DNA of 64,000 nt from Actinomycetes bacterium (GTDB taxonomy: Bacteria > Actinomycetota > Thermoleophilia > RBG-16-64-13), in contig JAGXFV010000028.1 in assembly GCA_024637095.1 (NCBI GenBank), forward strand, positions 1 to 64,000, in the 5' to 3' direction. Made by a program: the position numbers and the translations under genes. This document shows, in pieces, positions 25,413 through 25,634 of this stretch (its first letter is position 1; each line of letters starts with the position of its first letter). The notes beneath the pieces are model-generated. The model ran no database searches. It saw only the letters and a list, made by a program, of their open reading frames with translations, and had not been told where the DNA came from.

Positions 25413-25440
25413 TTGACATCCCGCTCAGACGCGGTAGACT
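25413..25440 (+). promoter_or_regulatory. Promoter of the structured RNA
   Basis: A perfect -35 TTGACA (25413-25418), a 16-base spacer, and a -10 TAGACT (25435-25440). The expected transcription start, about 25447-25448, falls at the first base before the closing stem of the RNA that follows. The region 25150-25412 upstream holds only the tRNA leader and short repeats; no gene was recognised. Confidence 0.75.
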
Positions 25441-25447
25441 GGTACAC

Positions 25448-25633
25448 AGAGTCCCGAGAGACAAGACGCATCTTCTCGAGACCATCACAACACCTCTTGT
25501 GGAGGAACGGCGGGGCTAAAAGACCGCCAACTACGTGGAAACAAGAGTAAGTGAAGGTCGTTGAAAGAAGAAAAGCGAGGTTACTCGGGACTCGCGTTAT
25601 CTAAAGGGCTGGGGTCTTCCCCGGCCCTTTTCT
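25448..25633 (+). ncRNA. Structured small RNA, 6S RNA-like candidate
   Basis: A roughly 186-nt transcription unit with its own promoter and terminator and no plausible reading frame. Ten bases at its start (GAGTCCCGAG, 25449-25458) pair perfectly with CTCGGGACTC (25584-25593). Further nested pairings run inward: CGC/GCG, TCTTCT/AGAAGA, GACC/GGTC, CAC/GTG, CTCTTGT/ACAAGAG, and an apical hairpin GGCGG/CCGCC. The result is one long rod broken by internal loops, closed at its first transcribed bases, with the length and form of 6S RNA, the RNA that binds sigma-A RNA polymerase. No conserved SRP RNA, tmRNA or RNase P motif is present. A cis-acting leader of the downstream kinase gene is the alternative. 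Confidence 0.6.
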
Positions 25634-25634
25634 C
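25603..25634 (+). terminator. Intrinsic terminator of the structured RNA
   Basis: AAAGGGCTGGGG pairs with CCCCGGCCCTTT (one T-G pair, 12-bp stem, TCTT tetraloop, 25603-25630) and is followed by a short T run (TTTTCTCG). It is strong and ends the RNA above, 110 bases before the kinase gene. A TATAAT box at 25654-25659 downstream may restart transcription for that gene, though its -35 is poor. Confidence 0.85.

Follow-up and report, generated by a model that had tools for sequence, protein, structure and literature searches.

Stand-alone structured RNAs that are conserved in many genera and yet missing from Rfam are, to our knowledge, uncommon. Several such RNAs, once characterised, proved to control core processes. 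Among other structured RNAs, T-box stem I and the lysine riboswitch have arms that combine a kink-turn with a loop-E motif. 6S RNA is widespread in bacteria except Actinobacteria, according to the abstract of a study on Ms1 (PMC9130861). Actinobacteria use Ms1, which binds the core RNA polymerase and is encoded in a genomic context of a HAD hydrolase, an oxidoreductase and other genes (PMC9130861). Another structured RNA, raiA/ModT (RF03072), is found in Bacillota and Actinomycetota (PMC11706538).

Here we describe an RNA unit in the window, i.e., the whole stretch of 64,000 nucleotides analysed, which comes from an Actinomycetes bacterium. The initial annotation had described the unit as an independent structured RNA resembling 6S RNA, with a new RNA class or a leader of the kinase operon as alternatives. 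The independent structured RNA and the new class were upheld by the present analysis, while the 6S identity and the kinase leader were not.

Promoter, fold and boundaries of the RNA unit

The features of the unit are listed in Table 1. The promoter TTGACA-16-TAGACT that had been proposed in the initial annotation is present, with a spacer of 16 nt between the two boxes. Both boxes and the RNA itself are conserved across 16 orthologues anchored at the closing stem P1, and upstream of the -35 box the conservation is at the background level except for one short block. Most of the homologues with a sigma-A-type promoter have TTGACN, 16–17 nt and a TANNNT box, and the RNA follows 6–8 nt further on. 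The main copies in f1, the family of the window, mostly have TTGAC(A/T)-16-TANAAT, and P1 starts 6–8 nt after it. In these copies, the start of P1 is predicted to lie at or adjacent to the transcription start.

The 10-bp perfect closing stem that had been proposed is present, as GAGUCCCGAG pairs fully with CUCGGGACUC. The proposed rod of nested helices was also found between the two strands of P1, and it is backed by the folding energy and by the covariation described below. The minimum free energy calculated with RNAfold for positions 25440–25634 was -85.1 kcal/mol, as compared with -57.2 ± 4.3 kcal/mol for the shuffled sequences (z = -6.45), and none of the 200 shuffles was as good. The strong terminator was located as a hairpin downstream of P1. 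The P1 strands and the U-run reached about 1.3–1.9 bits of conservation per position versus about 0–0.3 downstream, with the drop directly after the U-run. The unit thus has its own promoter and terminator and a covarying closing stem, in agreement with an independent structured RNA.

Table 1. Coordinates of the RNA unit, its promoter, helices and motifs in the window, and loci of length variants and upstream repeats in relatives.
Feature	Position	Strand	Remarks
-35 box TTGACA	25413..25418	+	851-base region with 2 promoter-like sites, against 0.2 expected from shuffles
-10 box TAGACT	25435..25440	+	homologue consensus TA(G/C)AAT
RNA unit, 186 nt, member of the new family	25449..25634	+	covariance-model matches in 18 f1 and 18 f6 genomes
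Closing stem P1, 5' strand GAGUCCCGAG	25449..25458	+	perfect pairing with 25584-25593
Helix P3, 5' strand	25472..25476	+	3' strand 25566-25570; double changes in 4 of 5 pairs (alignment A2)
Helix P4, 5' strand GACCAUCAC	25480..25488	+	3' strand 25551-25559; RNAfold; core four pairs all covary
Helix P5, 5' strand	25494..25500	+	3' strand 25541-25547; fold and covariation analysis
Kink-turn motif (sequence pattern), non-bulged strand GA-G	25502..25504	+	partner 25534-25539: C, 3-nt loop GUG, GA
Loop-E/bulged-G-like motif, GAA strand	25505..25507	+	partner strand 25530-25533, ACUA; AGUA in most relatives
Apical helix P6, 5' strand GGCGG	25509..25513	+	3' strand CCGCC 25524-25528; double changes in 4 of 5 pairs
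Decayed terminator-hairpin remnant, 5 bp GCGAG/CUCGC, no U-run	25575..25595	+	intact in most relatives, overlapping the P1 3' strand
Closing stem P1, 3' strand CUCGGGACUC	25584..25593	+	fold and covariation
Separate intrinsic terminator hairpin and UUUU	25603..25631	+	clear in the window genus (G000, G001)
Short members with P1 and adjoining loop, without kink-turn/loop-E arm	L068:2784-2860, L069:424-500, L073:5631, L074:5056, L075:1974, L080:2190, L070:3487, L190:4406 (G005:C186)		
11-bp direct repeats upstream of the RNA	L060, L081, L086		other repeat loci: L200, L203, L206, L211

Distribution and covariation of the family

A plain DNA search gave a match in each of the other 17 f1 genomes. 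The match in G005 (L018) was a spurious BLAST match and was dropped from alignment A1, and the real copies of this genome were obtained with a covariance model. Covariance model R1 detected members in every f1 genome (18 of 18) and in 18 genomes of f6, a different family of the same class. No member was detected with this model in f2, f3, f4, f5, f7 and f8 among the 199 genomes of the class searched, and nothing was found outside f1 and f6 in a sample of 297 genomes of the phylum. A wider covariance model, R2, returned the same two families only, with more paralogues. When a degenerate pattern of the apical arm was searched against 84,980 species genomes, 26 contigs were matched, all from Actinomycetota MAGs and including RBG_16_64_13, SURF_19 and DeMMO3_11, and nothing was found in viral contigs. 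Public relatives of f1 and f6 bear the names of Thermoleophilia or Actinomycetes MAGs. As far as sampled, the RNA family thus appears to be limited to two families of uncultured Actinomycetota.

The collections of plasmids and phages contained no match to the RNA, and a phage or plasmid origin was rejected on this ground. With Rfam 15 at permissive thresholds, tRNA was the only match in the window and the 17 homologous loci, and no description of this RNA family was found in a literature search of limited scope.

The pairing of the predicted helices was examined in two alignments. In a MAFFT alignment of 20 sequences, which was not fitted to a model, 97.8% of the cells were paired versus 26–51% with slid partners, and changes on both sides occurred in 15 of the 32 pairs. 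With 45 diverse members, in an alignment that was fitted to a model and therefore leans towards structure, 92.9% of the cells were paired versus 30–44% with slid partners, and double changes were found in 28 of the 32 pairs; the double-change cells numbered 262, as compared with 70 ± 8 in shuffles and 20–54 in slid controls. The closing stem had been singled out in the initial annotation as the place to look for covariation. In the 45 sequences, 98.6% of the cells of P1 were paired, and 7 of its 10 pairs changed on both sides. These patterns of substitution indicate that the RNA structure is under selection.

Comparison with the Rfam models of known RNAs

The Rfam model of 6S RNA (RF00013) found nothing at the unit, either at the gathering threshold or at E ≤ 10, nor at the 17 homologous loci. 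In the same genome, this model matched G000:C36:75549-75703 on the minus strand (L197:2550-2704) with 80.1 bits against a cut-off of 46.4. This locus aligns over its full length to the 6S consensus and adjoins hisS-aspS. RF00013 was above the cut-off in 17 of the 18 f1 genomes, and in 43 of the 61 genomes of the class, in several families. A canonical 6S RNA is therefore present in these deep-branching Actinomycetota, contrary to the exception made in the abstract cited above (PMC9130861). Because the canonical 6S RNA lies elsewhere in the genome, the unit in the window is an additional RNA. Its overall rod form with a promoter and a terminator is shared with 6S RNA, but the idea that it is the 6S RNA of this genome can practically be discarded, since RF00013 matches elsewhere in the genome and not here, and the structures are unlike, with no large central bubble in the unit.

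A further polymerase-binding RNA, with a 6S- or Ms1-like function and no 6S homology, is also an unlikely identity of the unit; in this reading, the rod would mimic DNA and sequester the polymerase. The rod closed at its ends, the strong promoter and the length of about 150–186 nt would suit this function, several promoter classes (see below) would fit a global regulator, and Actinobacteria use Ms1, which binds the core enzyme (PMC9130861). However, the genome already has a canonical 6S RNA, similarity to the Rfam 6S model is absent even at E ≤ 10, and the consensus lacks a large bubble like that of an open promoter, its internal loops being small and purine-rich. The HAD-hydrolase synteny of the Ms1 type was not noticed among the neighbours, part of which were typed. 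When 61 genomes of the class were searched with RF03072, the model of raiA/ModT, no match exceeded the cut-off, and there was none at the unit; this identity was rejected.

Internal motifs and length variants

Six short helices make up the consensus; the internal loops between them are small and asymmetric, and there is no large central bubble. The conserved unpaired segments are purine-rich and lie within internal loops, and no exposed pyrimidine-rich seed was found. Between P5 and P6, there is a conserved pattern, 5'-GA-G-GAA ... AGUA-C-NNN-GA-3', which we take to be a kink-turn signature (C-G pair, 3-nt loop and tandem G.A/A.G) followed by a loop-E/bulged-G motif. As assigned by sequence pattern, not by structure, the kink-turn is present in 51 of the 63 long copies, loop-E (GAA/AGUA) in 49 and both in 40. 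The C-stem G-C pair of the kink-turn is kept in all 63. The loop-E strand of the window genus is ACUA, not AGUA.

P1 and its adjoining loop are common to all members of the family, and P3–P6 are added in the long members. The short members are 67–100 nt long, counted to the end of the modelled fold, and the whole kink-turn/loop-E arm is missing from them. Several of them have sigma-B/F-like promoters, as judged by eye.

Alternative folds at the 3' end

Outside the window genus, the f1 main copies that were read did not show the separate terminator as such. Most f1 copies have a potential terminator hairpin, AGCGAGUUC-ACUCG-GGGCUCGCU, which is followed by a U-run and shares part of the 3' strand of P1. 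The f6 copies often have a weaker overlapping hairpin of a different sequence. The P1-closed fold was more stable than the open state, in which the 5' strand of P1 is unpaired, in 71 of 71 copies, with a median difference of 12 kcal/mol. The 3' end would probably fold first as the terminator hairpin, using part of the P1 3' strand, and then probably rearrange into the P1-closed rod, which is more stable. The window genus retains only a decayed form of the overlapping hairpin; a separate terminator has appeared there, and P1 is intact. Since P1 is intact despite the decay of the overlapping hairpin, it is presumably kept for more than termination.

The overlap of the terminator hairpin with the P1 3' strand, which occurs in most f1 and several f6 copies, raises the question of a ligand-sensing attenuator like a riboswitch, in which a P1-closed aptamer and the terminator would be mutually exclusive. 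Arms with a kink-turn and loop-E are known from riboswitches, and in f6 a tandem copy lies directly before the ribosome-binding site of a gene. Nevertheless, we regard an attenuator as improbable: a convergent fpg follows most of the f1 main copies, so that read-through would have no gene to control, the neighbours of the secondary copies are unrelated, and P1 is kept in the window genus in spite of the decay of the terminator that overlaps it.

Neighbours, paralogues and promoters

Gene names in this section are from our reading of the sequences, except where Pfam is cited. In the window genus, the gene after the RNA encodes a LytS-type histidine kinase (Pfam). The neighbours in the window were assigned by Pfam as a metal-sensitive repressor, an alpha/beta hydrolase, a phosphoribosyltransferase, a histidine kinase, an SSF symporter and Fpg. 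The f1 surroundings consist of tRNA-Gly, then a convergent fpg or the kinase. The RNA is followed by fpg on the opposite strand in most f1 genomes, and by the kinase in a minority only; the RNA is therefore not a leader of the kinase operon, as had been considered. In f6, pgk is upstream and a lipoprotein-like gene is downstream of the RNA, and the secondary copies are beside unrelated genes (carB, SLH-like, nitroreductase-like, lactate/malate dehydrogenase-like and a transporter-binding protein). Because the neighbours differ between f1, f6 and the secondary copies, there is no shared regulated gene. In the family, the orthologous position of the RNA is kept.

The number of copies per genome ranges from one in the window genome to about six in G016, where two contig ends with the same copy were merged. 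The only other match to the closing-stem pattern in the window genome, G000:C6:26639, has no 3' partner and was rejected. Across the family, the P1 pattern gave one extra real paralogue, G005:C186, of about 85–90 nt; the remaining extra matches that were checked lacked a 3' partner and appear fortuitous.

A miniature mobile element with terminal inverted repeats, and not an RNA gene, would also be multi-copy, with a near-constant terminal inverted repeat and a variable interior. This reading is very improbable in view of the promoters at fixed spacing, the U-run after the repeat, the covarying internal helices, the conserved internal-loop motifs, the retained orthologous position and the absence of any match in the phage and plasmid collections.

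Promoter classes besides sigma-A were assigned by visual inspection. In about ten secondary copies, a GTTT(A/G)-type -35 sequence is combined with a GGGNATAA-like -10 sequence, which presumably resembles sigma-B/F promoters. Three copies with a compensated P1 variant, GAGCCCUGAG/CUCAGGGCUC, have 11-bp direct repeats, GTTCAGG-N4-GTNCAGG, near the -35 box. Such repeats are typical of OmpR-family response regulators. In G010, the same repeat adjoins an ABC transporter and an OmpR-type response regulator, and in G017 it adjoins a matching ABC transporter. A reading of the repeats as Pho boxes was rejected, as the neighbours are not phosphate genes. Apart from the RNA subtype, the direct repeats were noticed beside ABC transporters (at L203 with the response regulator) and near glycogen-phosphorylase-like genes.

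Two further arrangements were observed in f6. A divergent second copy lies about 80–240 nt downstream of the first one at L098, L103, L104, L106, L108, L109, L110 and L113. Several of these tandem copies are directly before the ribosome-binding site and ATG of the lipoprotein-like gene, and they lack the kink-turn but mostly keep loop-E. Given this position, a role in cis is possible for some members of the family, and the tandem second copy may be a cis-acting derivative. A third conserved RNA locus (L099, L102, L105, L107, L112 and L114) is in most cases flanked by TauE/SafE-like or MviN/LepA genes on one side and by a gene for a UPF0182-like membrane protein on the other, and several of its copies have CGATAA-type -10 sequences unlike those of sigma-A.

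Search for protein partners

Pfam models were used for the search of 61 genomes of the class. Hfq was found in none of them, with positive controls, and L7Ae also in none. CsrA was absent from all of the f1, f3 and f6 genomes sampled, and was present in members of f2, f4, f5, f7 and f8; the RNA family therefore occurs only in genomes free of CsrA. Hfq, CsrA and L7Ae were thus rejected as partners, being absent from the f1 and f6 genomes as far as the Pfam models tell. The RNA would accordingly be neither an Hfq-dependent sRNA nor a CsrA-sequestering RNA.

These results bear on a base-pairing regulatory sRNA, which would reach its mRNA targets through the loops. Independent, terminated and multi-copy genes, with differently regulated paralogues and variable interiors, are seen in some sRNA families, and the apical arm of many f1 copies has an SD-like GGAGG. 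We doubt this function, however, because P1 locks the 5' end and P1 or the terminator locks the 3' end, the strongest conservation is mostly in the terminal stem and the kink-turn/loop-E arm, Hfq is found in 0 of 61 genomes, and an exposed pyrimidine-rich seed is lacking.

Discussion

The unit has the promoter, the terminator, the covarying structure, the conservation across genera and the varied neighbours of a stand-alone structured ncRNA, and without a fixed neighbour or an Rfam match it is well described as the new RNA class that the initial annotation had offered as an alternative. From the sequence comparisons, we assign a probability of roughly 0.55 to the reading that it is a stand-alone RNA of a new class which acts in trans through a bound protein. 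The gene would produce a structured RNA of about 150–186 nt from a housekeeping (sigma-A-type) promoter, ending at its own terminator, and the RNA would dock to a protein. Four observations lead us to favour action in trans through a protein: P1 locks both ends, the unpaired bases that are conserved belong to purine-rich motifs of internal loops, the search for Hfq gave no match, and no gene is a constant neighbour. All members would have in common the terminal stem, which is conserved in sequence, and in the long members the kink-turn/loop-E arm may bend the rod and offer a second binding surface.

The paralogues might give the same RNA output under different conditions, in which the sigma-A type would correspond to growth, the sigma-B/F-like type to stress, and the 11-bp direct repeats to a two-component signal. 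We propose tentatively, as a possibility short of an even chance, that the members form a multi-gene regulatory RNA family in which a constant module is connected to different sigma factors and to a response regulator, the connection differing between paralogues. This module would be the terminal stem with its adjoining loop, plus the kink-turn/loop-E arm in the long members. The well supported structure, the defined unit and the natural length variants make a minimal active module testable.

Compared with the known systems, the RNA resembles 6S RNA in its stand-alone, intergenic gene, its length, its own promoter and its fold as a long rod that the first and last bases close. It differs in having no detectable homology to 6S RNA and no large central bubble, in occurring in a genome that has a separate canonical 6S RNA, in being multi-copy in many relatives and in having the kink-turn/loop-E arm. 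Ms1 and the present RNA are both stand-alone structured RNAs of actinobacteria, but the HAD-hydrolase context of Ms1 was not noticed here, in a comparison by genomic context with part of the neighbours typed. raiA/ModT, a trans-acting orphan RNA, is comparable in its length and its structured, stand-alone form, but has two pseudoknots and eight helices (PMC11706538). The RNA shares with CsrB/CsrC the stand-alone form and the GGA-containing unpaired segments, although its GGA sites are few and mostly in internal loops, and CsrA is absent from f1 and f6. T-box stem I and the lysine riboswitch also combine a kink-turn with a loop-E/bulged-G motif in a single arm, whereas the RNA described here has neither an Rfam match nor a consistent downstream gene, and a single G-C pair separates its two motifs. 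A stand-alone structured ncRNA is a known kind of gene; this family and its organisation with multiple paralogues and promoters are not catalogued in Rfam 15. If the wiring of a constant module to several promoters proves true, it would represent an output channel made of RNA that differs from the catalogued classes and perhaps acts on the machinery of transcription or translation.
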